DNA of 61,274 bases from a virus. The stretch lies in the IMG/VR virus record IMGVR_UViG_3300025769_000007, positions 1 to 61,274 of that record, one strand, 5' to 3'. The notes under the pieces were generated by a model that had not been told where the DNA came from, did no database searches, and saw only the letters and a list, made by a program, of their open reading frames with translations. Shown here piece by piece: positions 1,495 through 61,274 of this stretch (the stretch's first letter is position 1; every line of letters starts with the position of its first letter). A program made the translations under genes and the position numbers.

Positions 1495-1495
1495 A

Positions 1496-1761: not shown

Positions 1762-1765
1762 AGAC

Positions 1766-1993: not shown

Positions 1994-1997
1994 CACT

Positions 1998-2784: not shown

Positions 2785-2785
2785 T

Positions 2786-2977: not shown

Positions 2978-2980
2978 ACT

Positions 2981-4127: not shown

Positions 4128-4133
4128 TAATAT

Positions 4134-4155: not shown

Positions 4156-4190
4156 CATCAGAAGTTAATTAAATTTAAAAACCAAAAACT

Positions 4191-4760: not shown

Positions 4761-5527
4761 TGAGTTTAGATAACTTTATAAAGAAGTTAGTCGATGACTC
4801 TTTTTATTACTCTGACTACGAGTTTGTAACGAACTCGCAGTTAGGGTTAATAAAGAAAGATGTCAGGACTTACAAGATGATGAGGGATAATCCCGAACTC
4901 AACAAGGAAACTATGCCTATGATCTTTGGTAGAGCATATCATGTTGCCATGTTAGAGCCTAACGAGTTTAACGACAAGGTCTTAGTATTTAATTCAGCTA
5001 CAAGGACTACTAAAGGATACAAAGAGTTTAAGGCTGATAATCCTAACGCACCTACTATAATCTTACAGAAGGAGTACGATAAGATTATGTACATGCAAGA
5101 CGTATTGTTCTCTCATAACGAGGTTAAAGACTTACTCCAAAAGGAAGGAGAGAGAGAGATAGCTAACGCTTGGAAAGATGAGGATACTAACGTGTTCTGT
5201 AAAGGTAAAGCAGATTACCGTAATGGTAAGACTTTAATAGATCTTAAAACTACTGGTGATGGTAGCCACTGGGGTTTCTCAAACTCTTGTAAGAAGTACG
5301 GTTATGATAGGCAGTCAGCCTTCTATATGGATGGTTTTGGTTGTGATGAGTTTGTATTTATAACTCAGGAGAAGGAGAGACCTTATAACGTATCTATATT
5401 TTATGCTGGTGACGAGTTCATAGAGAGGGGTAGGCAAGAGTATAAGTACCTACTAGATGTTTATAGAAGATTCTTTATAGACAACGAGGAGGTTGTAGAT
5501 GACCACTTAATAATGGAGACACTATGA
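4760..5527 (+). CDS. PD-(D/E)XK exonuclease of the RecE/Exo VIII-like type
   Basis: The 255-residue protein resembles phage PD-(D/E)XK exonucleases (PDDEXK_1/DUF3799 type). Visible features are MPMIFGRAYHVAMLEP near residues 52-67, the catalytic GKADYRNGKTLIDLKTT around residues 147-163 (Asp, then Asp-x-Lys), and KYGYDRQSAFYMDGF, matching the conserved YxxQxAxY element. It would resect DNA ends to make single strands for the ERF protein encoded just upstream with a 1-nt overlap. Its TGA stop overlaps the next gene's ATG. Confidence 0.88.
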   Translation: MSLDNFIKKLVDDSFYYSDYEFVTNSQLGLIKKDVRTYKMMRDNPELNKETMPMIFGRAYHVAMLEPNEFNDKVLVFNSATRTTKGYKEFKADNPNAPTIILQKEYDKIMYMQDVLFSHNEVKDLLQKEGEREIANAWKDEDTNVFCKGKADYRNGKTLIDLKTTGDGSHWGFSNSCKKYGYDRQSAFYMDGFGCDEFVFITQEKERPYNVSIFYAGDEFIERGRQEYKYLLDVYRRFFIDNEEVVDDHLIMETL

Positions 5528-5733
5528 CATTAAAAGAAAAATTAAAAGAAAGTAAAATATACAAGCCTTGGCTTGCAGAAAGATTAGGGTTAAGTCGTCC
5601 TACCCTAGACAAATACTTAGACAAACCTGACGAGTTTAAAGTTAAGCATCTCAGAAGAATTGCTAAGTATATAGAAACAACAGAAAGGAAGGCATTAGTT
5701 AATTATTTTATAAAAGCTGAAAGCTATGAGTAA
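5524..5733 (+). CDS. Small helix-turn-helix DNA-binding protein
   Basis: The 69-residue product contains a helix-turn-helix of the Cro/C1 type. PWLAERLGLSRPTLDKYLDK (residues about 16-35) has the typical Ala, Gly and Leu positions, and a C-terminal helix follows. It overlaps the exonuclease stop by 4 bases (ATGA) and the next gene by 8 bases. It is a candidate regulator of the early promoters carrying the GTAAAAT(A)ATTTAC palindrome, which is inference from context only. Confidence 0.75.
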   Translation: MTLKEKLKESKIYKPWLAERLGLSRPTLDKYLDKPDEFKVKHLRRIAKYIETTERKALVNYFIKAESYE

Positions 5734-5998
5734 CAAAACAACAGAAAAAATCTACGTAGGAAACGGAGTAGAAAAATTTGACGGAGACTTAGTTCAATTC
5801 TCTTTGAACTTGACTAAGTTAAAACAAGAAGCTGGAGATTACATCTTCGATGGTAAAACAGGTGATAAATTTATAACCTTAAAGGTTGTAAAGAAACGTA
5901 ACGGTGCTGATGATTATGGTAAGACTCATTACGTTGAGGTAGACACTTGGAAACCTGAAGTTAAGAAAGAAAAAGTAGCTGACGATTTACCATTTTAA
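5726..5998 (+). CDS. Putative single-stranded DNA-binding protein (SSB-like)
   Basis: This 90-residue protein belongs to a group of short phage proteins with a beta-rich core (IYVGNGVEKFDG, then FSLNLTKL, then GKTHYVEVDTW). It ends in the acidic tip ADDLPF, very like the DDDIPF tail with which SSB proteins recruit partners. Its position right after the ERF, exonuclease and HTH genes supports a role in single-strand binding. The core is shorter than classical SSB, so the assignment rests on tail and context. A strong terminator follows. Confidence 0.6.
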   Translation: MSNKTTEKIYVGNGVEKFDGDLVQFSLNLTKLKQEAGDYIFDGKTGDKFITLKVVKKRNGADDYGKTHYVEVDTWKPEVKKEKVADDLPF

Positions 5999-6002
5999 TA
6001 TT

Positions 6003-6028
6003 GGAGGGGAGAAATCCCCTCCCTTTTT
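6003..6028 (+). terminator. Rho-independent terminator
   Basis: A perfect 8-bp stem GGAGGGGA/TCCCCTCC with a GAAA tetraloop (6003-6022) is followed by C and five T. It ends the ERF-exonuclease-HTH-SSB operon and separates it from the secreted-protein gene at 6057. Confidence 0.85.
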
Positions 6029-6056
6029 AATCTTATTAAAAATTTAAATTGTAGTT

Positions 6057-6539
6057 ATGAAAAAGTACGTTTTTTATGTTTTTTATTTTGGATTATTGGT
6101 TAATCAAAAATCGTATTCACAAACAGATTCTGATAAAGTTTTAAAAGACCTGTCTAAAGATTACATTAACTACCTTGAGTCTGAAGGCTTTCGCCCAAAG
6201 ATTGATGATGTAGGTGATGTAAGCTTTAAGTTTGAGGGGTCAACGTTTTGGGTCATGCCTTACTACTCTGATTTTTTTTCTTTGAGTAGATTTTTATCTC
6301 TTGATGAAAATCAAAAGTGCACAAAAGGTCTTATGAATATGATTAATGATTTTAATTTCGATAGAGTTAGCGATGCAGCTCGTGTTTACGATAATTGTAA
6401 AACAATTGAAATAAGATCTACAAGCCACTTGCCAAATAAAAATGATTGGAAGTATATTTTTGAACCCTCTGTGATTTGGTTGAACAACTCTTCAATTGAT
6501 TTCTCAGAAAAGTATAGGGAGTTCTTAGATAAAAACTAA
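6057..6539 (+). CDS. Secreted/periplasmic protein, YbjN-like fold possible (moron candidate)
   Basis: The 160-residue product begins with a Sec signal peptide (MKKYVFYVFYFGLLVNQKSY, cleavage likely before QTDSD), so it acts outside the cytoplasm. The mature part has the pattern YLESEGFRPKIDDVGDVSF followed by FEGSTFWVM, resembling the YbjN / secretion-chaperone-like fold seen in small Bacteroidota proteins; this is a tentative impression. It is flanked by a terminator upstream and an A-rich gap downstream, sitting alone between replication genes. That is the typical arrangement of a moron acquired from a host. Function unknown. Confidence 0.7.
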   Translation: MKKYVFYVFYFGLLVNQKSYSQTDSDKVLKDLSKDYINYLESEGFRPKIDDVGDVSFKFEGSTFWVMPYYSDFFSLSRFLSLDENQKCTKGLMNMINDFNFDRVSDAARVYDNCKTIEIRSTSHLPNKNDWKYIFEPSVIWLNNSSIDFSEKYREFLDKN

Positions 6540-6585
6540 CTTAAAAAACAACCAAAAAACAACCAAAAAACTAACTAAAAAAACT

Positions 6586-7080
6586 ATGAAGTACAGAGTA
6601 TCAGACACAGACATTATCAGTATAGATAAGGTAGAGTTTATTGAGGTCGATGGTCGTTATATTAATTTTCATACTTCAACAAATACACACCAATCTATTT
6701 ATAATAACGATATGGAGTCAAATTGTGTTTTCAATAATATTGTTAACCATTTTGCTACTATAGATCTTAGGTTTAGTGATACTAAAAAAGTTGAGACTGA
6801 ATCTGAAAGAAAAGAAAAGGCATTTAATATGTTTTGGAATCTATACGACAAAAAGGTAGACAGACCTAACGCTAGAACAACATTTATGAACTTAACACTT
6901 ACCGAAATGGGTGAAGCCATAAAGGGAGTTAAGGATTATGTTGATTCAACGCCAGATAAAAAATATAGAAAAAATCCTAGAACTTGGTTAAATGCCAAGG
7001 GATGGGAGAACGAAATACATATAGATAAAAAGAAAACTAACCGATACGTTAAACCTAAATATATTACAGATGAAAGATAA
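6586..7080 (+). CDS. Putative replication protein / helicase loader
   Basis: The 164-residue product has a variable beta-rich N-terminal part. Its C-terminal domain (residues about 78-150) has the pattern FWNLYDKKVDRPNARTTF then YRKNPRTWLNAKGWENEI, shared by many phage replisome-organiser and DnaT/DnaD-like proteins that bring DnaB to DNA. It overlaps the DnaB gene by 11 bases, which supports a partnership with the helicase. The family assignment is by motif only. Confidence 0.65.
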   Translation: MKYRVSDTDIISIDKVEFIEVDGRYINFHTSTNTHQSIYNNDMESNCVFNNIVNHFATIDLRFSDTKKVETESERKEKAFNMFWNLYDKKVDRPNARTTFMNLTLTEMGEAIKGVKDYVDSTPDKKYRKNPRTWLNAKGWENEIHIDKKKTNRYVKPKYITDER

Positions 7081-8392
7081 TATGGATATGGAGATGAGAC
7101 TTATCGGTAAGATTATGTCTAATCCAAGAGACTATTACGATTGTCATAGCCTTATATCTGAGGAAATATTTACCGATCCTTTAAATAGAAAGATATATAA
7201 AGTTGTATCAGAAAGATTAGATAAAGGAGATAAGGCTGACATGATTGTAATATCATCTTCTATTAAAGATCCTCTTGTGGACCTCAGGGTAGCTGAGTGT
7301 ATGAGTTCTGATCATTACGCCTACATAACAAAAAACATGGTCTTATACCTATCTCAAGAGGATAAAAAGATAAGGCTTAAGAAGTTGGCAGAGCTTACCA
7401 CAAAGAAAATTGACAATGGTGATGACTTATTTAACATCATAGACTTTGTGGATGCTGAGATGAAATCTATATCTGAGATTAGAGGTAGTGATATACCTGA
7501 TATTAAAAAGCAGTTAAAGGTTTTGCATGACGATATACAAAGAAGAATGGCATCTGATAACATGGTGGGTTTACCTACAGGTTTCCAATCAGTAGATAAG
7601 TTTACTGGTGGGTGGCAAGAGACAGACTTTATTGTAATTGGTGGTGCTTCATCTATGGGTAAGACATCACTGGGTTTAGCTTTTTGTTATAACTGTGCTA
7701 AGGCTGGTATACCTGCTGCCGTATTCTCTTACGAGATGGGGGACACTCAGCTTCTTCAGAGGTTGGTTTCCCTAGAGAGTGAGGTAAATAATAGGTACAT
7801 AATGAAGGGTGCACTAGAGAGTAGTGAACTAAGTAGAGTGGATACAGCTATAGGTAAACTTGAAGGTGTTAGTCTATTTATAGACGAGTGCAAAGACTCA
7901 TCTCTTAGGTATCTTCTTAATAAGGTTAGACAATACGTTATAACTAAAGAGGTTAAGTTTGTTCTTGTGGATTACCTACAACTTGTTAAGGGTACTGGTA
8001 CCTCTAGAGAGCAAGAGGTTGCTATGGTGGCTCGTGAGCTAAAAAATCTAGCTAAGGAGCTTAATATAACAATAGTGGCTCTCTCACAGCTTAGCAGAGG
8101 TGTAGAGAGAAGAGATGGCTGTAGACCTAGCCTGTCCGATCTTCGTGAGAGTGGTGAGATAGAGCAGGCATCTGATATTGTTATGCTTGTGTATAGACCT
8201 GAGTACTACGGCATCATGACCGATGATAGTGGAAAGTCTACCGAAGGTCTTGTAGATTTAATCTTTGCTAAAGGTAGGAACATAGGTACTGGAACTTTAC
8301 CTCTAAAGTTTAAGAAAGAGTACACTAAGTTTATAGACCCTCAAGATTATACTGAGAAGTATATATCATCTAGTCCTTCAGAATCTTTTTAA
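7070..8392 (+). CDS. dnaB: Replicative DNA helicase, DnaB family
   Basis: The 440-residue protein shows both DnaB domains. The N-terminal helical domain (residues about 5-100, with RLIGKIMSNPRDYYDC) is followed by the RecA-like domain with Walker A GGASSMGKTS (near residue 192) and the H1a region VFSYEMGDTQLLQRLVS. Walker B is FVLVDYLQLV (near residue 300), followed by ALSQLSRGVERR and DLRESGEIEQASDIVML. It would unwind the phage replication fork; no phage DNA polymerase is visible, so host Pol III probably follows. The start at 7070 overlaps the loader gene; ATG 7082 is an alternative. Confidence 0.95.
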   Translation: MKDNMDMEMRLIGKIMSNPRDYYDCHSLISEEIFTDPLNRKIYKVVSERLDKGDKADMIVISSSIKDPLVDLRVAECMSSDHYAYITKNMVLYLSQEDKKIRLKKLAELTTKKIDNGDDLFNIIDFVDAEMKSISEIRGSDIPDIKKQLKVLHDDIQRRMASDNMVGLPTGFQSVDKFTGGWQETDFIVIGGASSMGKTSLGLAFCYNCAKAGIPAAVFSYEMGDTQLLQRLVSLESEVNNRYIMKGALESSELSRVDTAIGKLEGVSLFIDECKDSSLRYLLNKVRQYVITKEVKFVLVDYLQLVKGTGTSREQEVAMVARELKNLAKELNITIVALSQLSRGVERRDGCRPSLSDLRESGEIEQASDIVMLVYRPEYYGIMTDDSGKSTEGLVDLIFAKGRNIGTGTLPLKFKKEYTKFIDPQDYTEKYISSSPSESF

Positions 8393-8394
8393 TT

Positions 8395-8487
8395 ATGGAG
8401 GTAGATTTTATTTTTATTATAGATTTTATAGTAGGGGTTATATTTATTATTTGGCTTATTGAAGAACTAATTAACTCGCTAAGATGA
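8395..8487 (+). CDS. 30-residue single-span membrane microprotein
   Basis: ATG 8395 follows the DnaB stop by two bases. The 30-residue product is almost entirely one transmembrane helix (DFIFIIDFIVGVIFIIWLIE) followed by a short polar tail. Its TGA stop overlaps the next ATG as ATGA (8484-8487), as expected for a coupled, real gene. Function unknown. Confidence 0.55.
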   Translation: MEVDFIFIIDFIVGVIFIIWLIEELINSLR

Positions 8488-8747
8488 GAAAAGAGATATA
8501 TCACGCCACAGTTCATTACAGATGGAGAACTTTAAGATTTGTAAAAGGAGTCGAGAAGCCTGCTAAGAAGTGGAAAAAATCTACTCACAGGACATGTATT
8601 ACTGAGCTTGATCCTGAAAAACTACAGAATGTTAAGCATTTTACAAGAGGATTAGAGATAAAACACAAATCAACTAACGATATACAAATAAAGATAGATA
8701 AGGTAACTGACTATGAGTTTATATGTATGTCCCACGATGTTTATTAA
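8484..8747 (+). CDS. Hypothetical basic protein, 87 residues
   Basis: The product is basic and aromatic at the N terminus (MRKEIYHATVHYRWRTLRFV) with a Lys-rich middle, and probably small and beta-rich. It is coupled to the upstream microprotein by an ATGA overlap. No family is recognised. Confidence 0.7.
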   Translation: MRKEIYHATVHYRWRTLRFVKGVEKPAKKWKKSTHRTCITELDPEKLQNVKHFTRGLEIKHKSTNDIQIKIDKVTDYEFICMSHDVY

Positions 8748-8758
8748 AAGATATAGAT

Positions 8759-8950
8759 ATGAAATTATATTGTAAAAATTGTGAAAAAACAATTGAAGTT
8801 AGTAAATTTACAATGAAAGTCGTTGATAATAAGGTAATTAAACCTGAGTCAATCTGCGATTGTGGTGAACAAATGAAAGACGTTTCAGAGTACAAAGGAC
8901 TTGGTGGTATTATAAAAAGACCAGGTGGTAAAGTAGGAGGTAAGATATAA
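8759..8950 (+). CDS. Small zinc-ribbon-like protein, 63 residues
   Basis: The frame is open from 8723, but ATG 8759 lies outside the previous gene and gives a product starting directly with the metal site (MKLYCKNCEKTIEV). Two Cys pairs, CxxC near residue 5 and CxC in ICDCGEQM near residue 38, look like a zinc ribbon. The tail is Gly/Lys-rich. The stop overlaps the next start as TAATG. Role unknown, possibly nucleic-acid binding. Confidence 0.7.
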   Translation: MKLYCKNCEKTIEVSKFTMKVVDNKVIKPESICDCGEQMKDVSEYKGLGGIIKRPGGKVGGKI

Positions 8951-9216
8951 TGAAAGAAGAAAATCAATTAAACTTACTGCTATTACTAGCTACGTTTAAA
9001 AGCTTTAGTGAGCAGTTGTACAACCTAAAGGGTGAGCATTCAGGGCTGGTTAAAAAGAAGTTTAACATGCTAATGAACGCTGTAAGTAGTTACGAGAGAA
9101 CCATAGACGAAGAGTGGTTAAAAGAAAATAAGTCTGTTATTGAGGACTTAAACGACTCAGTTACTGATTTTATTTATATACTAAGAGACGAATCCATTAA
9201 ACGAAATACTAACTAA
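8950..9216 (+). CDS. Hypothetical helical protein, 88 residues
   Basis: The start overlaps the upstream stop by one base. The product is predicted all-helical (MKEENQLNLLLLLATFKSFS onward) and acidic overall, with no transmembrane segment of sufficient length. No family is recognised. Confidence 0.7.
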   Translation: MKEENQLNLLLLLATFKSFSEQLYNLKGEHSGLVKKKFNMLMNAVSSYERTIDEEWLKENKSVIEDLNDSVTDFIYILRDESIKRNTN

Positions 9217-9228
9217 AAACAATATAGT

Positions 9229-9414
9229 ATGGAACATGATTCAATTGAGTGGGGATGGGAAAGCCAAAGCCCACTAAACATGAGAAGTCAAGAGCATATA
9301 GCTTTTTTACTTAAAAGGTACAACGAAGGTAAACCTGAATCAGAACACGTAACAACAATGGCTCAGTTAAACAGAGCATTATTAAAAGAAGAGTCAGAAA
9401 ATTTGAATAGTTAA
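9229..9414 (+). CDS. Hypothetical protein, 61 residues
   Basis: It starts after aaaacaatatagt, a start context seen several times in this arm. The product is acidic and polar (MEHDSIEWGWESQSPLNMRS) with a likely helical C terminus. Function unknown. Confidence 0.65.
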   Translation: MEHDSIEWGWESQSPLNMRSQEHIAFLLKRYNEGKPESEHVTTMAQLNRALLKEESENLNS

Positions 9415-9443
9415 ATTAAGTTAAACAATTAAATTAAATTAAA

Positions 9444-9710
9444 ATGGTCGTAGTAGCGATAACAGTCGTCTGCGTTATATGTATTCTTATAGCGTGGGAC
9501 ATGGTAAAGTATTCTCAAAAAATTAAAGAAAGTGAAAGACATAATAACAGAGTTCTTGAAACTATCAAAAAAGAAAAATCTAAGACTAAGCGTAGTCCAA
9601 AGATTTCTAAAGATCAAGTATCGAATAAACGTAAGTATAAGAGTGCTAAAAAGAAGGCTGTTGAATCTAAAGTAAAGAAAAATGCAGGAAGAAATAAGAA
9701 AAAAGTGTGA
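9444..9710 (+). CDS. Membrane-anchored lysine-rich protein, 88 residues
   Basis: An N-terminal transmembrane helix (VVVAITVVCVICILIAWDMV, residues about 2-21) is followed by a charged helix and a strongly basic Lys/Arg/Ser tail ending KKKV. The layout suggests an inner-membrane protein whose cytoplasmic tail could bind nucleic acid. The end overlaps the next gene by 29 bases. No family is recognised. Confidence 0.7.
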   Translation: MVVVAITVVCVICILIAWDMVKYSQKIKESERHNNRVLETIKKEKSKTKRSPKISKDQVSNKRKYKSAKKKAVESKVKKNAGRNKKKV

Positions 9711-10041
9711 TGAGATCAGGGACTTGTTAATAGAAAAGAATAAGTCTTACGGAAACTCAGTTTTTGATAAAGGAGTTTTGTTTAATGTTGATCCTATGTA
9801 CGCTATCCAAGCTCGTATAAATGACAAGCTTAACCGTATAAAAAGTAAGGAAACCTATATGAGTGAGAATGATCTCATGGATCTTACGGGATACCTTATA
9901 TTATTACAGGTTTATATGGACGAGGTAGATAAAAGAATGAGTGAAACTATTAAGTCTGCTGAGACATATAAAGAGGGTGAAACACCATTTACTTACGAGT
10001 GGTCTACAAATGGAGAAGATGAGACTGGAACCCCGATTTGA
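9682..10041 (+). CDS. DUF1599 / Nmad1-like protein (nucleotide-modification associated)
   Basis: The 119-residue product matches the DUF1599 / nucleotide-modification-associated domain 1 family. Visible features are IEKNKSYGNSVFDKG (residues about 17-31), IQARINDKLNRIKSK (about 42-56) and ENDLMDLTGYLILLQ (about 62-76). This helical family occurs widely in phages and is suspected to act on nucleotides or modified DNA; the biochemical role is not settled. It overlaps genes on both sides, so it is part of a packed operon. Confidence 0.8.
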   Translation: MQEEIRKKCDEIRDLLIEKNKSYGNSVFDKGVLFNVDPMYAIQARINDKLNRIKSKETYMSENDLMDLTGYLILLQVYMDEVDKRMSETIKSAETYKEGETPFTYEWSTNGEDETGTPI

Positions 10042-10462
10042 AAGTAAAGAGGATAGAGAAAGAGAGGCTGAAACTCTTCGCATCCTCCTCGAGGGAAAAG
10101 ATTTAACCTTTAAGCAGTTAGATAAGTACGCACCAGTAGATGCTGAGATTATAGATAATAAGACCATGAAGGTTGTATCTTTATGCGAAATTAAAACAAT
10201 GTCTTTAAATATGACTGACGTACAGAGAGCTAGAACTTCAGTAAGAAAGATACAGCATTGCCAGAAAGAAGCCCTTCAAAAAGAGTTACCTTTATGTATA
10301 GCTTGGAGATTTCTCGATGGAATTGGTTATATTTGGATGCACGAAATAACAAAAGCCACAGTTGAGTGGGGTGGCATGAGAAACCCACGACCAGGATCTA
10401 TATGGGATAGAGAATTGTTATTCTATATAGACCTAGATTTACTAACTATAATTAAATTTTAG
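10010..10462 (+). CDS. Putative PD-(D/E)XK nuclease
   Basis: The frame is open from 9941 but overlaps the preceding gene deeply; ATG 10010 or 10019 gives a product starting MEKMRLEPRFESKEDRERE. The core has the nuclease-like pattern VDAEIID, about 10 residues, then VSLCEIKTM (Asp ... Glu-x-Lys), and later PLCIAWRFLDGIGYIWMHE. It is probably a PD-(D/E)XK superfamily member, possibly a resolvase or DNA-end nuclease, in an operon with other DNA-processing genes. The assignment is by motif only. Confidence 0.6.
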   Translation: MEKMRLEPRFESKEDREREAETLRILLEGKDLTFKQLDKYAPVDAEIIDNKTMKVVSLCEIKTMSLNMTDVQRARTSVRKIQHCQKEALQKELPLCIAWRFLDGIGYIWMHEITKATVEWGGMRNPRPGSIWDRELLFYIDLDLLTIIKF

Positions 10463-10464
10463 AC

Positions 10465-10656
10465 ATGAACAAGCAACAGAAAGACAGAGAACAACAGGTT
10501 AGACTATTAAAGTTTGACTGTGAAATGAGAGCTAGAGTATTAGAGATAGCCTCAGGACTACCAACAAGTAAGAACGCTAAATCTCTTTTAGAGAACGCAG
10601 ACAAGCTTGCCAAATATGTATTTGGTATACCAGATCAGCCTAAGGAAAAGAAATAA
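10465..10656 (+). CDS. Hypothetical helical protein, 63 residues
   Basis: It starts two bases after the nuclease gene. The product is charged and helical (MNKQQKDREQQVRLLKFDCE) with a Pro/Lys tail. Probably a small accessory phage protein; no family is recognised. Confidence 0.65.
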   Translation: MNKQQKDREQQVRLLKFDCEMRARVLEIASGLPTSKNAKSLLENADKLAKYVFGIPDQPKEKK

Positions 10657-10688
10657 TTCGTATCTTGCGTGTTATAATATAGTTTAGT

Positions 10689-10961
10689 ATGGCACGAAAT
10701 AAATTAGCTGGTAAGATTAACGGTAAGAGCAAAAGCTCTAAGCATTACGCTAAAAACCCTAAGTCTAGAAAAAAGAAAAACGAATACGATAAAGAGTATT
10801 CCTCTTCTGAAGAGAGGAAAAAGTATCGTGTTAAGTTAAATCTTTTTAATAGAAAGAAAGGTAAGAAGGGTGACGGCATGGATGCTTCTCACACAAAAAA
10901 TGGTGGGCTAGTTATGGAAGGGCAGTCTAAAAATAGAGCAAGGAATAGAAATAAAAAATAA
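10689..10961 (+). CDS. Conserved-type basic phage protein, 90 residues
   Basis: The product is very basic. Its arrangement, NPKSRKKKNEYDKEYSSSEE followed by KKYRVKLN, then DGMDASHTKNGGLVME and SKNRARNRNKK, is a pattern I recognise from many phages, usually encoded near replication or packaging genes. No biochemical function is known to me. Basicity suggests DNA or RNA binding. Confidence 0.7.
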   Translation: MARNKLAGKINGKSKSSKHYAKNPKSRKKKNEYDKEYSSSEERKKYRVKLNLFNRKKGKKGDGMDASHTKNGGLVMEGQSKNRARNRNKK

Positions 10962-10982
10962 TTATTTTCGTAACTTGCTTTA

Positions 10983-11444
10983 ATGCGATTTAAAAGACGA
11001 AAGGGAAAACAGATAACTAAAGCTAAGAAACACGTTGTAGATGGTATTACATTTGCTTCAGGACTAGAGCTGTACTGTTATAAAGCCCTAAAGAAAGCAA
11101 AGATCCCCCACGAATATGAAGGAAAGACCTTTGAGCTTGTAGAGAAATTCAAGTTCGAGGGTCTTCTCATGGATAAGGGTAAGACAAAAGGTAAAACCAC
11201 CTTTAAACAAAAGCCTGGTAACATAAGAAATATATCTTACACACCAGACTTTATTAATTTAGAAGAGGGTTTTATTATAGAAACAAAAGGTATAAGAACT
11301 CCTGAATTTAAGATGAGGTTCAAACTATTTTTAAAGTATCTTTATGATACTAATCAAAAATTAGACGTATATGTCCCATCAAATCAAAAGGAAGTTGACG
11401 CAACTGTAAACCTTATTTTAAACAGGGGTTCTTTTAAAAAATAG
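10983..11444 (+). CDS. PD-(D/E)XK endonuclease, DUF1064 / resolvase-like
   Basis: The 153-residue protein has a typical small PD-(D/E)XK nuclease layout. An N-terminal basic segment and FASGLELYCYKALKKAKIPH (Glu in the first helix) are followed by YTPDFINLEEGFIIETKGI (catalytic Asp, then Glu-x-Lys, residues about 90-108) and a helical C terminus. DUF1064 and T7 endonuclease I-like proteins process branched DNA in phage replication or packaging. It is followed by the non-coding island 11445-11676. Confidence 0.75.
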   Translation: MRFKRRKGKQITKAKKHVVDGITFASGLELYCYKALKKAKIPHEYEGKTFELVEKFKFEGLLMDKGKTKGKTTFKQKPGNIRNISYTPDFINLEEGFIIETKGIRTPEFKMRFKLFLKYLYDTNQKLDVYVPSNQKEVDATVNLILNRGSFKK

Positions 11445-11501
11445 CTCTCCATTTTTTTTACTTATTTATAAGTTTTTTGGATTTAATTTACAGGAGAGTT
11501 T

Positions 11502-11568
11502 AGTACGAGAGCAAGCTGCGTGAGTGCTGCATAGTATACGAGAGTGGGCTGCGTGAGTGCTACATATC
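11502..11568 (+). repeat. Tandem 33-bp repeat, two copies
   Basis: Two adjacent 33-bp units start at about 11504 and 11537. They share tacgagag, three variable bases, then gctgcgtgagtgct. They lie in a 232-bp gene-free interval (11445-11676) of higher GC that also contains an inverted repeat CTCTCC/GGAGAG (11445-11450 with 11493-11498). They could be part of a small RNA or protein-binding iterons. No known element is recognised. Confidence 0.6.
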
Positions 11569-11607
11569 TAAATCCTGGCTTTAAGCAATATGGGCTAGGT
11601 TGTTCTT

Positions 11608-11662
11608 GTATTCGGGGGGTTTTTGAGATTTGGTCGTCCATGCGGCCCCCCAATACTTTTTT
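11608..11662 (+). terminator. Strong hairpin followed by T6 (terminator or RNA 3' end)
   Basis: GTATT-C-GGGGGG (11608-11619) pairs with CCCCCCAATAC (11646-11656), an 11-bp helix with one bulged C and a 26-nt loop. TTTTTT follows (11657-11662). This is a good rightward terminator and would also form the 3' end of any RNA made from the repeat-containing interval upstream. Confidence 0.7.
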
Positions 11663-11676
11663 AAAATAATATAGTA

Positions 11677-11832
11677 ATGTTACACGATAGAGATGAAGCT
11701 TTAAGAGAAGCGTTAAGAAAGTCAGACGAGTCTAGAGATAACCTTTTTGAATCATGGATAGTAGATCTTGTAGATCCAGAAGATGAGGACGAGTCTTGTG
11801 AAGATGGTTGTTGTGGAGATAGCTGTGAATAA
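11677..11832 (+). CDS. Acidic 51-residue protein with Cys-rich tail
   Basis: ATG 11677 follows taatatagta, a recurring start context. The product is acidic, with a helical N-terminal half and the C-terminal end DEDESCEDGCCGDSCE. The C-x4-CC-x3-C cluster could bind a metal ion. The stop overlaps the PhoH start as TAATG, so the two are translationally coupled. No family is recognised. Confidence 0.6.
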   Translation: MLHDRDEALREALRKSDESRDNLFESWIVDLVDPEDEDESCEDGCCGDSCE

Positions 11833-12491
11833 TGACAGATAACAAGGATAAAAAAAGACCCAAGGGTAACATTAAGTTTAATATAACCCTATCTGAAGAA
11901 CAGAAGAAGGCTAAAGAAAGTATCTTGAGCCACGCTTTTAGTTTTGTAATAGGTAAGGCTGGATCTGGTAAGACCCTTCTTGCCGTTCAAGTCGCTCTTG
12001 ACATGTTCTTTAAAAGGCAGTATAGTAAGATTATAATTACTAGGCCTACTATAGCTACTGAAGATAACGGTTTCCTCCCAGGTAGCGAGAAAGAAAAGCT
12101 TGAGCCTTGGCTTGTACCAATCATGTCAAACATGCGTAAGGTTTACAATAAGGCTGATAAGATTAATAGTATGGTTGAGAAAGGGGAGATAGAGCTTGTG
12201 TCTTTATCTCACTTTAGAGGTAGGACGTTTGACAACTCTGTAGTTATAGTAGATGAGTTTCAGAACTTAACTAAGGCTCAGTTTCGTATGGCTTTAGGTA
12301 GGCTAGGTAAAGATTCTATAATGATATTCTGTGGTGACAATCAGCAGATCGACCTTAAAGATCAGAACTACTCAGCAATACATGACGTTGCTAAAATAAA
12401 AGATAGTGATTTTGTATTCAAGGTTATACTAGAAGATAACCATAGGCATCAAGCGATAGATGACGTTCTTAAGCTACTTAGCGGCTACTAA
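11832..12491 (+). CDS. phoH: PhoH-like P-loop ATPase
   Basis: The 219-residue product is a complete PhoH-domain ATPase with Walker A FVIGKAGSGKTLLAVQ (near residue 40), the family signature ITRPTIATEDNGFLPGS, and Walker B SVVIVDEFQNLTKAQF (near residue 138). IFCGDNQQIDL and ILEDNHRHQAI follow. PhoH-like proteins are frequent in marine and Bacteroidota phages; an RNA-related ATPase or helicase role is proposed but not established. It ends the rightward early arm. Confidence 0.92.
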   Translation: MTDNKDKKRPKGNIKFNITLSEEQKKAKESILSHAFSFVIGKAGSGKTLLAVQVALDMFFKRQYSKIIITRPTIATEDNGFLPGSEKEKLEPWLVPIMSNMRKVYNKADKINSMVEKGEIELVSLSHFRGRTFDNSVVIVDEFQNLTKAQFRMALGRLGKDSIMIFCGDNQQIDLKDQNYSAIHDVAKIKDSDFVFKVILEDNHRHQAIDDVLKLLSGY

Positions 12492-48043: not shown

Positions 48044-49141
48044 TTAGAATATTACATAATTAAGGCCAACGCTAAAGTTGTGCCACTGTCTGTTCCAATA
48101 CTTATTGTATCTTCCTTCCACAAATATACCAAAACTTTTATTAAATCTATAACCATAAATTAAACCTAAAGAATAGTCAACCCATTGACCTTCATTAAAC
48201 TTATGATAAGAGTAAGTATTCTTAGTGTCTAAGTGGTATGGCATAACATTACCCCAAGTGTGAAACCAGAAGTCTTTTGTGAAATGATAATAGTCCATAC
48301 CCACAACAAAAGAATACTCAACTATATTAGATATAGAGTTTCTTTGTTTTTCTACATAATTATTTATAACTTGTGGTATAACAACTTCTTCCCACACTTC
48401 TTGACTGCTGGCTACAAGAGTTCCATCAGGCGAAAAGTACTCTCCCCCTAGGGTGATGTTGTACCCCTCTTGAAGAGCAAGGTATGTATAATGAAGAGTT
48501 CCATTATCTAATACCCAGTCTTCTAAAGGATTAAAGCCATAAGGTTCGGCAAGTCTTTGTACTAAACCCCCATTTAATGAAAGCTTACCGCTCCTTATCT
48601 TTAATCTAAATCTTTCTGATGCTTCAAAATATTTTATATCTGCAAAACCATCCTCAAGGTACTCTACTTTACTCACCCATTTATCTGCAACATATCTTAC
48701 AAAGTGATGATGATTAGTGTAGTTTACCCCTAAACGTCTTACAAAATCAGCCTCGAACAAATATTCAAAACCATCAACTCTACCAATGGTTGCGGCATCA
48801 GAATAAGAGTTTTCCGTACCATTATAAAAAGTGTTGGCTCTGTTCTCATATCCGAATCTTTTAATCTTTCTAATACCAATAGATATATTATAATCAAATG
48901 GTGTTTTAATAGTTTCTTCTTCTAAAGATCCAGATGTTACAGACCATATTTGATCATCACCTAATGATGTACCACCATTAACTGCAGCGTAAAATGTAGA
49001 GTATTTAAATATTTTATGTAAATCTTGAGCTTTACAAGACGGAGCAAATAATCCAAAAAACACAACATAAAATAAAACTAGTATTACCCAAAATAACAAA
49101 TACCCAACATCAGGTGTAAAAAATTCTTTTAATCTTTTCAT
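48044..49141 (-). CDS. Predicted outer-membrane beta-barrel protein
   Basis: The 365-residue product has an N-terminal hydrophobic export segment (about residues 14-37, ending PSCKAQ, probable cleavage before DLHK). The mature part is dominated by short amphipathic strands rich in Tyr, Phe, Trp, Gly and Asn, and its end, WHNFSVGLNYVIF, has an aromatic terminal residue as recognised by the BAM machinery. Strand pairs such as VDYSLGLIYGYRFNKSFGIF support a porin-like barrel. Its start overlaps the stop of the T9SS repeat protein gene by 4 bases (ATGA), so the two are co-translated. The barrel could sit in the host outer membrane and alter receptors or partner the exported protein. Confidence 0.7.
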   Translation of the reverse strand: MKRLKEFFTPDVGYLLFWVILVLFYVVFFGLFAPSCKAQDLHKIFKYSTFYAAVNGGTSLGDDQIWSVTSGSLEEETIKTPFDYNISIGIRKIKRFGYENRANTFYNGTENSYSDAATIGRVDGFEYLFEADFVRRLGVNYTNHHHFVRYVADKWVSKVEYLEDGFADIKYFEASERFRLKIRSGKLSLNGGLVQRLAEPYGFNPLEDWVLDNGTLHYTYLALQEGYNITLGGEYFSPDGTLVASSQEVWEEVVIPQVINNYVEKQRNSISNIVEYSFVVGMDYYHFTKDFWFHTWGNVMPYHLDTKNTYSYHKFNEGQWVDYSLGLIYGYRFNKSFGIFVEGRYNKYWNRQWHNFSVGLNYVIF

Positions 49142-52100
49142 TTCTTTAATATGCTTTTAGTAGTAGTTACACCATCATATGTTACACTAAAATAATACAC
49201 TCCTGAATTTAATAAACTCATGTTTAATTGATTTAAACCTTTTTTAGTATATCTTTCTTTTACGTGTATTACTACTTTACCTGCTGAGTCATAAACAACA
49301 ACCTCTACCTTTCCGTTAGTTAGTATATTTATATAGTCAGTTACGGGAACAGGATACATAACTACGTTATGTCCTCTCAATAAATCTCTAGTATCTAATG
49401 GGCTATCCCAGCTACAGCTCCAGTATAATTCTTGACATTTATCGTCCCACTCATTATTACAACAATAAGGATCTACCATTAAAACCCAAGCGTAACATGT
49501 GTCATTCAACCAATATGGATTACCAGGACCATCAACACAACCTGCGTCATACAAACAACTACCATCCTCTGTATTAGAAAACTCGCTATAATTATGTGCC
49601 ATCTGATCCATACATCCTTCTATAATGTCTATACAAGCATCATTATCTGTGTTAGCTGTTTCGTCATAATTAAACGACTCTGGATTAGTGCATCCTAATA
49701 CAATATCAATACAAGAGAAGTCCTCTGTGTTAGCGTTTACACTATAATTAAACGCTGCAGGATCTGTACAACCATAGACTACTTCAATACAAGATTGGTT
49801 GTCTGCATTTGCAAGAACATCGTAATTAAAAGCAGTAGAGTCCATACACCCATATATAGGAAGGATACAAGTATTATCGTCAGTATTTGCTTCAGCGTTG
49901 TAATTTAAAGCGTTAGGATCATCGCATCCATATATAAATGATACGCAAGATTGATTATCGCTATTTGCAAGTGGATTGTAGTTATACATTGTATTGTCTG
50001 TACAACCGTATATAGGTGTAATACAAGACCCGTCATCCAGGTTAGCATCTAAAATATAATTTAAAGCTATAGGATTTGTACACCCATAAACTATTCCTTC
50101 ACAACTCTGATTATCAGTGTTAGCTAACGGGTTATAATTATAAGCTGAAGAATCAGTACAACCGTATATTATATTTATACAAGAACCATCATCAGTATTT
50201 GCGTCCTGATTGTAGTTCAAAGATTGAGGGTTTATGCATCCGTAAATATATTCTAAACAGGTTCCGTTATCTGAGTTAGAAAGAGGATCATAATTAAATG
50301 CAGTAGAATCACCGCACCCAAATACAAAAGAAATACAATTATTGCTTTCTGTGTTTGCTTCTTCATTATAGTTATACATTGTTGCGTCCATACATCCAAT
50401 AACAACTTCTACGCATAACCCGTTATCTGTATTTGCTGCTATATTAAAATTAAACATGCTTGGATCCGTACAACCTTCTATAACATCAACGCAACTTTCA
50501 TCGTCTGTATTAGCTAAAGGTTCATAATTAAAAGATGCCTCGTTAGTGCATCCATACACGTATGGTATACAATCATCGCTACTATCTGTAGCCTCAGGCA
50601 TAAAGTTAATTGATAAAGGATTAGTGCAACCAACAACTTCAAGTTCATCACAAACTTCATCTAAATCAATATCATTAAGACAATCTCCGTTACAATCTTC
50701 GTAAACTTCTACTGGATAAAAACAACCACCATTGTCTGCGTTAGCTTCTTGGTCATAATTACAAGCCTCAGAATCAGTACATCCTAAATAAATACAATTG
50801 CCATCGTCTATATTAGATTCTGCATTATAGTTCCAAGCCTGGTTGTCCATGCAACCATAAACTATAGCTTCACAACTTTCATCATCAACATTAGCTTCTG
50901 CATTATAGTTAAACGCTAAATCGTTTGTACAACCTAATACAATATCAATACATTCTTCAGATTGAGTGTTAGCAAGAGAATCGTAATTTAAAGCAAAAGG
51001 ATCTAAACAACCTTCTACAACTGGAATACAATAATCTCCACAATATGGCATAACACTATATACATGCCAAAAAGGAGCTTGATAAGCTTTTAATATTCCC
51101 GCCCCATTATTCATAAAAGGATTAGTTCCCGCTTGTATTGTTGTAACACCATTAGAGTTTATTAGTCTAAAAGAATTGTGCATTGTTTGGAACTCTACTT
51201 CAGCTTGAGGCTGCTGAGGCTTCCCTATCTCGAAATAATAAATATCTATAGGTTTATCAGTAGATAAAGTTATTTCAAACTCTTGATAGTATTCTCCTGC
51301 TACCACAGTATAAGTTCCTATAGATACACCACCCTGAACTAAACCTATATAGGAGTCTCCCCATCCATCACCTGCATCATCCTCTATAATTAAAGTGTAA
51401 TCACAAGATGGGATTATATCATTTAATGTAGCCTCAGGATTGTAATTAAATGAAGATGGATTTAAGCAACCTAAAGTGTGTGGGTTTGTACAACTTCCAT
51501 CATCTACATCTGCAAAAGGATTATACTCTATATAGTCAGGATCCATGCAGCCATAAACTACAGGTATAGGGCAGTTTTCTAATTGTATAACTCCTGAGTA
51601 TGCTGCGTTACCAAAACCTGCATCAGGTAAAGACCATAAAGTATCTAAAACCCCGCAAGGTTCTAAGTCACCTAAAATAACAAAGTTACCATCTACACCT
51701 CCGCTATATAACGACCCTTGCATACCGTCACCGTATGTATCACTTATTATAAGTTCCACACCAAATTCTGGAGCACACAAACTATAAGATATTGTAGTAT
51801 TTGCTTGATTGTAATTATAAGTGTTGCCTAGAACACTTTCTACTGGTTGTCCTGTAGATATATCAGTAAGAATCCACCCAGTTTCGTTTGGATATTGATC
51901 TAGAGTAACTTCTAAAATCATTCTAGCCTCACCATCGCTACACTCTGTATTTATACAGCTACCATTGTCAACCTGCGCCCAAGGGTTATAATTGTTAGCA
52001 TCTTGATCTGTACAACCCAATACTGGAAACTGACAAGAATTATTATCAACATTGGCTAGAGAGTCGTAATTAAGAGCTAAGGGATCTACACAACCTAACA

Positions 52101-52326
52101 CTGTGTCTATTGGTGCTTCACAGTCACCTGCGTCATAACCAAATTCTTCACAATTAAAATCTATAGGGTTACCATTCCATGTATACGAACCATCGTCACA
52201 AAAACCATCACTTAACCAGTTTTCTGGAGATGGTGTTCCAAAACAGTCAACAAATGTGCTGTCTTGAGAAAATGAGTTAATAGTAATAAATAATAGTAGG
52301 TAACTTAATTTCTTTAACACTTCCAT
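49138..52326 (-). CDS. Large secreted Cys-repeat protein with T9SS sorting domain
   Basis: The 1062-residue product has a signal peptide (MEVLKKLSYLLLFITINSFS). A Notch/LNR-like Cys module follows (about 26-70, DGFCDDGSYTW, then YDAGDC). About 22 copies of a roughly 26-residue repeat come next: GC(T/M)DP, Ala, then Asn-Tyr, Ala-Asn, then DDGSC, mostly between 438 and 925. Two beta domains with DTYGDGMQG (about 210) and DDAGDGWGD (about 315) interrupt the repeats. The last 75 residues (VVMYPVPVTDYINILTNGKV to SGVYYFSVTYDGVTTTKSIL) are a type A T9SS C-terminal sorting domain. The host type IX system would export it to the cell surface. It overlaps its neighbours (13 and 4 bases) and so belongs to the late operon. 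Confidence 0.88.
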   Translation of the reverse strand: MEVLKKLSYLLLFITINSFSQDSTFVDCFGTPSPENWLSDGFCDDGSYTWNGNPIDFNCEEFGYDAGDCEAPIDTVLGCVDPLALNYDSLANVDNNSCQFPVLGCTDQDANNYNPWAQVDNGSCINTECSDGEARMILEVTLDQYPNETGWILTDISTGQPVESVLGNTYNYNQANTTISYSLCAPEFGVELIISDTYGDGMQGSLYSGGVDGNFVILGDLEPCGVLDTLWSLPDAGFGNAAYSGVIQLENCPIPVVYGCMDPDYIEYNPFADVDDGSCTNPHTLGCLNPSSFNYNPEATLNDIIPSCDYTLIIEDDAGDGWGDSYIGLVQGGVSIGTYTVVAGEYYQEFEITLSTDKPIDIYYFEIGKPQQPQAEVEFQTMHNSFRLINSNGVTTIQAGTNPFMNNGAGILKAYQAPFWHVYSVMPYCGDYCIPVVEGCLDPFALNYDSLANTQSEECIDIVLGCTNDLAFNYNAEANVDDESCEAIVYGCMDNQAWNYNAESNIDDGNCIYLGCTDSEACNYDQEANADNGGCFYPVEVYEDCNGDCLNDIDLDEVCDELEVVGCTNPLSINFMPEATDSSDDCIPYVYGCTNEASFNYEPLANTDDESCVDVIEGCTDPSMFNFNIAANTDNGLCVEVVIGCMDATMYNYNEEANTESNNCISFVFGCGDSTAFNYDPLSNSDNGTCLEYIYGCINPQSLNYNQDANTDDGSCINIIYGCTDSSAYNYNPLANTDNQSCEGIVYGCTNPIALNYILDANLDDGSCITPIYGCTDNTMYNYNPLANSDNQSCVSFIYGCDDPNALNYNAEANTDDNTCILPIYGCMDSTAFNYDVLANADNQSCIEVVYGCTDPAAFNYSVNANTEDFSCIDIVLGCTNPESFNYDETANTDNDACIDIIEGCMDQMAHNYSEFSNTEDGSCLYDAGCVDGPGNPYWLNDTCYAWVLMVDPYCCNNEWDDKCQELYWSCSWDSPLDTRDLLRGHNVVMYPVPVTDYINILTNGKVEVVVYDSAGKVVIHVKERYTKKGLNQLNMSLLNSGVYYFSVTYDGVTTTKSILKK

Positions 52327-59060: not shown

Positions 59061-59490
59061 AGATTTTTGATTTTTTTGCAATATATAATTTTTTCTGAGA
59101 AATAAAAAGGGTGGGGGTTATATATGTAATCTGTGAGTGTGTTCCATACACCGAAACCCGAATCCCGAAACGGGGTACCCAAACTAAAATACAATGCATG
59201 CATTCTAAATGTCGTTTTCTATTTTCAGTCTGTTAGGCTAACTATCATCAGCTATGCTATCTGTCAGTACTAAGAATCCTAAACATTGTCTTATATGCTC
59301 CCTAAGATACCCCAAACGGAACGTATCGCAGTAACTATTACAAGGAAAGGAGCTGAAAGAGGTGGTGTAATATCCCCAATAAACAACCCAACCCCCAAGA
59401 TATACAAACAACACAAAAAAAAGTTTACCCTCTCAATCCCTTGCTATCAGTACGTTTGCAATATTTGTTGTAACATTTAATGTAAAATAA
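59061..59490. other. Gene-free divergent region with palindromes, possible origin or control region
   Basis: About 430 bases without a convincing gene separate leftward and rightward transcription. The stretch holds a tandem 7-bp motif CCGAAAC/CCGAATC/CCGAAAC (59151-59171), a small hairpin CCCG-AAA-CGGG (59164-59174), the palindrome GGGTACCC (59173-59180) and a perfect 12-bp palindrome AATGCATGCATT (59193-59204). Short repeats and palindromes near the early promoter could mark a replication origin or regulator sites. This is suggestive only. Confidence 0.45.
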
Positions 59491-59523
59491 TTTGACACGT
59501 ATTGTTTTTTATTCGTACATTTG
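59482..59523 (+). promoter_or_regulatory. Promoter of the large non-coding RNA / early arm
   Basis: TTTG (59491-59494), 21 bases, then TACATTTG (59516-59523) is a full match to the Bacteroidota promoter consensus. Transcription would begin near 59530. GTAAAATAATTTGAC (59482-59496) overlaps the -33 box and resembles the palindrome found at the 1505 and 4134 early promoters. Confidence 0.75.
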
Positions 59524-59529
59524 TCCCAA

Positions 59530-60105
59530 CAATGATTCAATATCGTTGTCGTTCTTTAACATACTGATTCAGATATAGCACACGTGATGGTTGTGGCAAC
59601 GTCCCTAGGGATTAGCAGTAAGACCACGTTAACCTAGTGTAGCATCTGACTATCAAGTCTCTTTCGAGGGTGTTGAGATAGCATATCAGTAATAGACCTT
59701 TAGCTTGATTGAGGGTCGTAAGTCTTAGTCACGATACGTGGCAGTAGCATTGCCTACCTAAACGTATTAGAGCAATAATTCAATCAGCGTTTGTCAGTAT
59801 CGAATCAACTGAACGGAAACCACTGCCGACAACCAAGTGGGCTTGGATAGACCAATAGGCTATCATCAAGTTAGGTAAAGCACCATAGGGGATGTAAGAA
59901 ATCCGTACCGATTAATATGGGAAGTCTATCAGAGGGGATACTGATGATAGGTGGTAAGCAATTGAAGTGCCACCTTGATAGGTATGAAACTAAGTGGCAG
60001 TTAGTTTGAAGCAAGATAGACACCACGCCTTTGTGTGTTAAGGCGTGACTAATAACAACACACAAACTCCTTTTGATTTGGTGGGGGAAGTTTCCCCCAT
60101 CTTTT
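59530..60105 (+). ncRNA. Large structured non-coding RNA, about 576 nt
   Basis: No open frame of protein-like character exists here, and GC content is clearly higher than in flanking genes. The region is bounded by a consensus promoter and a terminator. Many helices are visible: ACGTG/CACGT (59582/59615), GTTG/CAAC (59590/59597), CTGA/TCAG plus CTATC/GATAG (59646/59677), TGATTGA/TCAATCA (59706/59780), ATACGT/ACGTAT (59734/59762), CCAAG/CTTGG (59833/59842), GATAG/CTATC (59846/59860), CTATCA/TGATAG (59926/59945), GGTGGTA/TGCCACC (59950/59968) and CACGCCTT/AAGGCGTG (60024/60040). The last one's 8-nt loop pairs with 60057-60064. It is not rRNA, tmRNA, RNase P or a group I or II intron by their core motifs. 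Size and phage setting recall the large ornate RNAs ROOL and GOLLD, but I cannot establish identity. Confidence 0.75.
60080..60105 (+). terminator. Terminator of the non-coding RNA
   Basis: A 9-bp stem GGTGGGGGA/TCCCCCATC (60080-60088 with 60093-60101, one G-T pair) with loop AGTT is followed by TTTT. It ends the non-coding RNA; some readthrough may reach the gene at 60195. Confidence 0.8.
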
Positions 60106-60194
60106 AAAGCTACCTAAGGCAGTTACAAGTCTGCATAAAAGCTGAGTAGAGGAAACAAATCAATAAACTAATCATTAATCTTAAATTATTTACT

Positions 60195-60530
60195 ATGGAA
60201 AGTGTAAGAGAATTACTAAATGAACTGAATACATATTCAGTAAAGGATGCAAACGCAATCAATAAAAAGGTACTATTTAAAAATGGTATTGAAGTAACGT
60301 ATCATGTCAAGAATAATTTGCAAAATGAAGATATGGTATTCCAAGCAGTACTTGTTATATCTTACAAGAATAGTGAGCCTATCGTATGGGGATGCACCAC
60401 AAATGAGGATAACTACCAAGTGGTTAGATGGTTTGAGAGGAAAGATGCTGGTATGCTTCAAAAGAAGAACAAGCAGAGAGAGACAGACACTCGAATATTA
60501 GCATCACTAATTGATGTATCGAAGTTATAA
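60195..60530 (+). CDS. Hypothetical early protein, 111 residues
   Basis: The first protein gene after the structured RNA starts after aaattatttact. The product is mixed alpha/beta (MESVRELLNELNTYSVKDAN, then VFQAVLVISYKNSEPIVWGC) with a basic C-terminal helix. It is followed by a G6/C6 hairpin, so it forms a short transcription unit. No family is recognised. Confidence 0.7.
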   Translation: MESVRELLNELNTYSVKDANAINKKVLFKNGIEVTYHVKNNLQNEDMVFQAVLVISYKNSEPIVWGCTTNEDNYQVVRWFERKDAGMLQKKNKQRETDTRILASLIDVSKL

Positions 60531-60535
60531 AAAAT

Positions 60536-60555
60536 GGGGGGAAAAATCCCCCCTT
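60536..60555 (+). terminator. Hairpin GGGGGG/CCCCCC after the first early gene
   Basis: GGGGGGA/TCCCCCC (60536-60542 with 60547-60553) with a four-base loop gives a strong stem, but only two T residues follow. It may be a leaky terminator or a processing/stability element between two early genes. Confidence 0.55.
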
Positions 60556-60575
60556 AACCTTAACAATTAGAAACT

Positions 60576-60836
60576 ATGAAATCAAACGAGAAATTAGCAC
60601 AAAAAATGTACAATGAAATATGGGACATATATAATACCTATGGTGGGTATGACTATAACGATAGTATGTTATGTCAAGCACAAGGCTCATCAGATGCCTT
60701 TGATTATTGGATATATGAAAAGGATGAAGACTGGGGTAACTTGGTTAAAGAATTGACACCATGCTTGGAGTATATGCGACACATCAAGAAGATACGAATA
60801 CTACAAGAGAGTATCCCACAACCTTTATATTGCTAA
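60576..60836 (+). CDS. Hypothetical early protein, 86 residues
   Basis: The start follows ttagaaact, the usual context. The product is acidic and aromatic (MKSNEKLAQKMYNEIWDIYN, then YGGYDYNDSMLCQAQGSSDA), probably helical. No family is recognised. Confidence 0.7.
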   Translation: MKSNEKLAQKMYNEIWDIYNTYGGYDYNDSMLCQAQGSSDAFDYWIYEKDEDWGNLVKELTPCLEYMRHIKKIRILQESIPQPLYC

Positions 60837-60861
60837 ACATTAACCTTAAAAATTAGAAACT

Positions 60862-61035
60862 ATGAAAATTATTATTGAAGATAAATCAGGAAATTATTTA
60901 TGCTCTTTTAATGTTTACAATAATCATCATTATTATGATGATGATGTAGAAATAGATAGAGATAGTTTAAAAGATTGCAACACATCAGTAGATGAAAAAG
61001 GAAATGAAATCGTTAAAATACAAATAAATAAATAG
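60862..61035 (+). CDS. Hypothetical early protein, 57 residues
   Basis: ATG 60862 follows aattagaaact, the same start context as its neighbours, and TAG ends the frame at 61033-61035. The product begins MKIIIEDKSGNYLCSFNVYN and has a His/Tyr/Asp-rich middle. It is a short, probably beta-type protein. Function unknown. Confidence 0.6.
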   Translation: MKIIIEDKSGNYLCSFNVYNNHHYYDDDVEIDRDSLKDCNTSVDEKGNEIVKIQINK

Positions 61036-61040
61036 AAACT

Positions 61041-61262
61041 ATGAGCAGTTACACAACAATAGGCTACTTGCAATCTAAGATGATTCGTATGCCTCTAAAC
61101 CTAAACACGAATTGGAACAACGACATCAATTCACTATCATCTGTCCAAGAGATTATCAACTATATTGATGACAATGGTACAACAGATGAGCATTGGCGAC
61201 TACTCCACGCTATCAAACAAATGGAAAAACTAAACAATACAGACAACCTATTAAACGACTAA
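61041..61262 (+). CDS. Hypothetical early protein, 73 residues
   Basis: The complete gene starts after aatagaaact. The product (MSSYTTIGYLQSKMIRMPLN onward) is polar and helical, with VQEIINYIDDNG and a C-terminal MEKLNNTDNLLND. Its 3' part is repeated at the window start because of the circular overlap; on the circle the next gene is the 54-residue frame at 131. Function unknown. Confidence 0.75.
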   Translation: MSSYTTIGYLQSKMIRMPLNLNTNWNNDINSLSSVQEIINYIDDNGTTDEHWRLLHAIKQMEKLNNTDNLLND

Positions 61263-61274
61263 GACTAAAAAAAA
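61148..61274. repeat. Terminal direct repeat, right copy (circular overlap)
   Basis: This is the right copy of the 127-base repeat also found at 1-127. Joining the two copies gives a continuous early arm with an intact 73-residue gene, supporting circular closure. Confidence 0.9.

Follow-up and report, generated by a model that had tools for sequence, protein, structure and literature searches.

Results

Composition, coding potential and known RNA families

What does the GC-rich island near the end of an uncultured phage genome encode, and what might it do at the head of an operon? The window, meaning the whole 61,274-nt stretch of DNA analyzed (positions 1 to 61,274 of IMG/VR record IMGVR_UViG_3300025769_000007), had been described in a sequence-only reading as carrying a large, many-helix non-coding RNA between a promoter and a terminator. 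The proposed coordinates, 59530-60105, proved correct. GC content across them is 42.4%, compared with 34.8% window-wide, and only 0.27% of the window's 576-nt stretches are equally GC-rich, so the description as a GC-rich island holds. The plus strand of 59530-60105 contains no ORF of at least 50 aa, and no frame of at least 45 aa is common to the homologues in the RNA sense. The suggested lack of a protein-like frame is thereby confirmed, and a protein-coding origin was rejected. A kinship with ROOL or GOLLD RNAs had also been raised; within 59300-60250, however, neither was matched in Rfam at the gathering threshold or at E ≤ 10. OLE, HEARO, tmRNA and group I/II introns likewise gave no Rfam match in the RNA region, and a known large RNA or intron was rejected as its identity. 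ARAGORN called neither a tRNA nor a tmRNA in the window, and a search for repeats flanking the RNA found none. Judged by these searches, the body of the 59530-60105 RNA is a family without an Rfam counterpart, in line with the earlier failure to recognize a family signature.

Consensus structure and covariation

Homologues were sought in IMG/VR with the flanking protein and with exact patterns taken from the RNA. At least 10 other phage contigs hold them, at 75-94% identity (L002/L013, which are identical, L003/L018, L015, L014, L016, L012, L072, L017, L073, L035 and L042); L019 has a homologue in part only. A single 12-sequence alignment, which favors structure somewhat because it served both to predict the structure and to count pair changes, gave a consensus of 26 helices and 137 pairs, with 96.3% of cells paired. 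Forty-one of the 137 pairs changed on both sides, versus 17.0 ± 2.6 in shuffles (0 of 500 reached 41), and sliding the partner by 1-3 columns lowered the number of double changes to 3-7. Since the double changes exceed both controls, we regard the covariation as decisive despite the same-alignment prediction; on this comparative evidence, the RNA fold is under selection. With covariation present above both controls in the 12 homologous sequences, and with a conserved frame and a match to a known RNA or intron both absent, the many-helix structure proposed from sequence holds, and covariation and operon position together bear out a large structured phage non-coding RNA heading the early arm. 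Folding energy alone was weakly unusual (z −1.77; 3 of 100 shuffles) and was for that reason left out as evidence. Consensus helices 1 and 2, which would pair boxA with downstream bases, barely vary and are not claimed. The poorly aligning 5′ and 3′ hairpins were folded sequence by sequence, and their pairing was retained in several unrelated sequences. The features of the locus are as follows.

59082-59490, no strand: conserved non-coding sequence ahead of the promoter, aligning across relatives (~90% to L003)
59491-59523, plus: Bacteroidota-type promoter TTTG-N21-TACATTTG, by pattern match
59529-59549, plus: 5′ hairpin ACAAUGAU/AUCGUUGU, boxB-like by position, pairing kept
59550-59567, plus: rrn-type boxA CGUUCUUUAACAUACUGA, predicted NusB-S10 site, by matrix match, directly after the 5′ hairpin
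59569-59699, plus: variable 5′ domain, closed by UCAGAU/AUCUGA (59569-59574 with 59644-59649; covarying helix 3)
59700-60021, plus: core I, the most conserved body of the RNA (covarying helices 7, 8, 10, 11, 15 and 18-20)
60022-60080, plus: 3′ domain, a CACGCC/GGCGUG hairpin and the strand GAUUUGG (helices 22 and 9)
60081-60100, plus: conserved 3′ hairpin beside the predicted cleavage site, earlier taken for a terminator
60101-60152, plus: type-P1 twister ribozyme, matching the whole RF03160 model
60195-61262, plus: first early genes of the operon (ORFs), continuing at window 1-12491 after circular joining

The main part of core I has a mean column identity of ~91%, and the GAUUUGG strand of the 3′ domain pairs back to ~59778-59788. 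The variable 5′ domain is swapped out or absent in L087, L085 and L088.

A twister ribozyme at the 3′ end

A rho-independent terminator had been proposed at 60080-60105. As far as the consensus goes, this stands in the window, where the hairpin followed by AUCUUUU fits an intrinsic terminator, as it does in L015 and L072. Across the 15 twister loci, however, the terminal U-run is cut down to UUU in 12 (all but these three), and the hairpin is retained with altered sequence in every one. A hairpin with a conserved U-run, as an intrinsic terminator would have, was not found across the 15 loci; hairpin and twister are conserved instead.

The twister match spans positions 1-68 of RF03160 with 43.6 bits (E 9.9e-9 when 251 bases were searched, 2.4e-6 over the whole window) and unites the twister core motifs with P1, P2 and P4 pairing. 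Its score and those of its relatives (41.8-47.9 bits) fall below the gathering threshold of 67.2 bits because the P3 arm of the model is absent, and the call rests on motif, structure and E-value, the Rfam threshold not being reached. Double changes occur in the twister helices 24-26 of the alignment, and compensatory changes turn AGC..GCU into UGC..GCA and GCAG..CUGC into GUCG..CGAC. With one exception, all full-length core I relatives have a near-complete twister consensus, as do those core II loci (see below) that have the 3′ domain. Twisters cut at U-A (PMC6154101), and the predicted cleavage site here is U60105/A60106, with 60105 as the last base and 60106 as the first; it coincides with the end point given in the sequence-only reading.

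The exception is L042, whose RNA body has no twister and is followed instead by a ~150-nt tRNA-like element, recognized by eye (acceptor GGGAAU/AUUCCC, T-arm). Folding gives this element (L042:3386-3545) an expanded cloverleaf; it was called neither by ARAGORN nor by Rfam at E ≤ 0.5. Hammerhead-like sequences were also seen by eye between early genes at L042:3955-4012, among the first early genes of L088 and at L106:21900-22010 (phage phi18:3), with no Rfam match at E ≤ 0.5. Another phage carries several twister-like copies between small genes, without the large RNA (L086:5000-5960).

Promoter, 5′ hairpin and boxA

At the other end, the location of the previously proposed consensus promoter was upheld, and its type was corrected to the Bacteroidota pattern TTTG-N21-TAnnTTTG. 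The pattern by itself proves nothing, since the window holds 3 such sites versus 4.0 expected. Position and conservation carry the promoter call: most leaders have a TAnnTTTG/TTTG-type site at the equivalent place. Transcription would start at ~59528-59532. The conserved non-coding region upstream may be an origin or a regulatory site.

The 5′ hairpin has unrelated sequences yet keeps its pairing in L014/L016, L017 and L082/L085. For the boxA that follows, we used a matrix made from seven non-phage sites, all in Bacteroidota rrn spacers; the rrn operons were found on plasmids. Such spacers carry boxA sequences such as AGTTCTTTGACATATTGA, or AGTTCATTGACATATTGA in Flavobacterium limnophilum. Over both strands of the window, the best match lies at 59550 with a score of 17.8 (next, 12.5). 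Because 5 of 60 simulated genomes equal this score, the boxA of the window is not overwhelming by itself, and it is position and recurrence that make the case. Within the 5′ domain, boxA is the most conserved 17-column block (95% versus 64%). In other leader types, sites near the promoters also match the matrix (scores of 23.9 in L088, 22.5 in L085 and 22.0 in MW202828), with a weak one in L081 (7.6). For leader types that have no detected mutual similarity, chance probabilities per 150-nt leader are 0.0024 for the window, 0.0004 for L088, 0.0012 for MW202828 and 0.02 for L081. The boxA of L082, L085 and L088 is the same as the F. limnophilum spacer sequence GTTCATTGACATATTG over 16 nt, and L077 and L084 each have two boxA-like sites. 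The leader in MW202828 is overlapped by an annotated minus-strand CDS that may be spurious (L099:18480-18803, MW202828 43480-43803).

Two phage isolates carry boxA sites in the leader of an early-gene operon. In phi18:3, the site AAGTTCATTGACATATTAAG (score 20.6) lies in the leader of leftward genes. Calle_1 has, by eye, two tandem promoter-hairpin-boxA units ahead of its rightward operon, one of which the matrix misses on account of an extra T in the boxA. These tandem units lie at 35.9-36.7 kb (L104/L105), and the same phage encodes an RtcB ligase. A matrix scan of elemoA and FCL-2 found no comparable boxA site. The leader of the window thus has what an rrn-type leader would have, namely a boxA of the host phylum (as deduced below) near the 5′ end, a hairpin directly 5′ of it and a place at the head of a long operon. 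In E. coli, boxA is necessary and sufficient for formation of the rrn antitermination complex (PMC10250234). Our literature search, which covered subscription journals and preprints in part, found no paper on boxA in phages of Bacteroidota.

Exchange of cores and spread of the RNA

Two scans, one for the 5′ motif and one for the twister, uncovered loci (L077, L082, L084, L085 and L087) with a 3′ end like that of the window, and mostly its 5′ domain too, but with a different core, core II. Core II carries its own boxA, GUUCAUUGACAUA...UCGCAAARUUCAGCAGUCGGC. The phage at L085 has a capsid protein 84% identical to that of the window, from which we infer that cores are exchanged among close relatives. 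At L088 and L089, core II serves as a leader without a twister, and at L081 and L083 an unrelated ~430-nt leader ends in one. L081:870-1308 and L083 are a GC-rich distant relative with a weak boxA. Taken together, the loci indicate that the RNA is modular, its ends being kept and its central core exchangeable.

The RNA did not turn up when 84,980 species genomes of bacteria and archaea were scanned with a core pattern; the sole match, L074, was rejected as a chance protein-coding match, and an origin from a host genome was discarded, there being no genuine match in this set. Among 50,697 phage records, none matched core I or core II at the DNA level, and a DNA match in FCL-2 extends over the promoter region only. 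Where homologue contigs include the major capsid protein gene, the product is 73-88% identical to that of the window, except for a short partial match of 69% (L084) and a distant one of 23% (L081). The RNA appears to be confined to uncultured phages akin to that of the window.

Genome context and probable host

A 127-bp terminal direct repeat (window 1-127 and 61148-61274) and the contig L013, which joins the end of the window to its start with 100%/99.95% identity, indicate that the genome is complete. The RNA heads a co-directional run of ~13.6 kb (60195-61262 plus 1-12491) that includes genes for a DnaB-type helicase, ERF, PhoH and a nuclease, a content that points to an early operon. The gene at 60195 starts 90 bases beyond the RNA end, with no TTTG/TAnnTTTG promoter between the RNA and the operon; in relatives whose contig is long enough, same-strand small genes likewise follow the RNA. 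Within the run, a strong intrinsic-terminator-like site at window 6003-6022 would have to be read through or followed by a restart, which we count in favor of an antitermination leader.

The host is probably a member of the Bacteroidota, to judge from the promoter type, a type IX secretion (T9SS) sorting domain (PF18962) and capsid relatives in Flavobacterium, Cellulophaga and Maribacter phages (26-29% identity). The sorting domain is C-terminal in a 1062-aa phage protein (window 49138-52326, minus strand).

Discussion

A proposed rrn-type leader and its alternatives

On balance we favor, with modest confidence, the view that the phage early operon opens with an rrn-type antitermination leader and that the twister sets the folded RNA of this leader free. 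Conserved structure, the sequence and covariation of the twister, the boxA match, modularity and position at the operon head support it. Host RNA polymerase would start at ~59530, and the nascent hairpin and boxA (59529-59567) would attract the NusB-S10 of the host, so that an antitermination complex of the host rrn type would assemble there. Polymerase would thereby be fast and Rho-resistant across the untranslated structured leader and into the ~13.6 kb of small early genes. The leader would fold into a compact RNA around an exchangeable core (core I in the window). During transcription, the twister at 60101-60152 would cut U60105|A60106; a ~575-nt RNA would come free, its 3′ end adjoining a stable hairpin, and the early mRNA would begin with a 5′-OH. 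The functional steps are deduced from sequence: that NusB-S10 binds, that antitermination follows, that the transcript is cut, that the product is stable and that its core acts once released. Several points weigh against this leader model. Twister cleavage would sever the tether between the leader and the remaining transcript, the twister, at 43.6 bits, falls short of the gathering threshold of 67.2, FCL-2 and elemoA have no comparable boxA, and 5 of 60 simulated genomes equal the boxA score. Moreover, boxA can drive antitermination without 500 nt of elaborate folding, which means that the core must have another role. Because it is both conserved and exchangeable, we suspect either a released RNA that acts in trans or a contact between the core and polymerase.

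In an alternative, the large RNA acts freely in the manner of ROOL or GOLLD (as an assembly made of RNA only, in host takeover or in the virion), boxA just keeps Rho off a long untranslated RNA, as in rRNA, and the twister just makes the 3′ end. Conservation peaks in the core (91% mean identity), far beyond the needs of an antitermination site, the 3′ hairpin is retained beside the cleavage site, and the size is ROOL-like. The L042 body, with a tRNA-like element replacing the twister, is what one would expect if the RNA itself needs a defined 3′ end. Yet ROOL and GOLLD are unmatched by sequence, no tRNA island lies nearby in a window without tRNAs, the core is swapped wholesale for core II, and the RNA sits at an early-operon head; we consider a free-acting RNA rather unlikely. 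The boxA itself could instead be the active part, an abundant decoy that would titrate NusB-S10 (or RNA polymerase) off host rRNA operons during takeover. A boxA resembling that of the host (with a 16-nt identity in core II), release by the twister, the early position, the paired boxA-like sites of L077 and L084 and the two tandem promoter-hairpin-boxA units of Calle_1 would all suit this proposal, which nevertheless leaves the conserved core and the restriction to the operon head unexplained and seems to us very improbable. We give equally little credence to an ordinary terminator-bounded small RNA gene with a twister that is decayed or part of the downstream gene. An intrinsic terminator does fit the hairpin and AUCUUUU of the window, L015 and L072, but the other homologues lose the U-run while keeping hairpin and twister, the twister core is retained with compensatory changes, and no promoter was recognized between the terminator and the 13.6-kb operon. 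The free-standing transcript between promoter and intrinsic terminator that had been envisaged from sequence thus gives way to an early-operon leader with boxA and twister as the likelier form.

Comparison with known systems

With the rrn leader and 16S-23S spacer boxA of Bacteroidota, the phage locus shares the boxA sequence, a place at the start of a long transcript with a structured untranslated RNA that is then processed (a step predicted in the phage), and a hairpin just upstream of boxA, the boxB-boxA order of E. coli. Unlike rrn, it heads a phage early operon with protein genes and no rRNA, has a twister 3′ end and contains a large exchangeable core. The lambda nut site requires the protein N. 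As in nut and in HK022 put RNA, RNA elements of an early phage transcript are predicted here to act on polymerase; unlike them, and set beside them by description, the window combines a boxA of host type with a covarying body of ~500 nt and predicted self-cleavage. The put RNA of HK022 is self-sufficient (PMC9378689). Action on polymerase that calls for neither a phage protein nor Nus factors characterizes the put type. The twister has the core motifs and helices of type-P1 RF03160, with P1 at the ends, but differs from the model in being minimal, without the P3 hairpin, and in closing off a large RNA at its 3′ side. ROOL and GOLLD are similarly phage-borne, 500-900 nt long (ROOL env-120 is 659 nt; PMC12286853) and elaborately structured with covariation, and GOLLD likewise has one conserved and one variable part. 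The RNA described here differs from both in lacking a sequence match and an adjacent tRNA island, in its boxA start and ribozyme end, and in heading an early operon.

In the literature found, three traits are not combined: an rRNA-type boxA in a phage early leader, a self-cleaving ribozyme as the 3′ boundary and exchangeable large cores. Our findings suggest that phages of Bacteroidota hosts may launch early transcription by borrowing the host apparatus for rRNA antitermination, with no known phage protein of the N kind involved. Tentatively, and as a possibility that we rate below the leader model itself, the locus may belong to a "plug-in" class of phage RNA in which boxA and a self-cleaving ribozyme are fixed ends between which unrelated large cores (I, II and possibly others) are exchanged, each released as an effector RNA in early infection. 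The position of boxA, the core swap and the predicted cleavage site offer entry points in the sequence for testing what a large ornate phage RNA does, and the isolates Calle_1 and phi18:3, which carry boxA in their early leaders, make the boxA part accessible to tests in culture.
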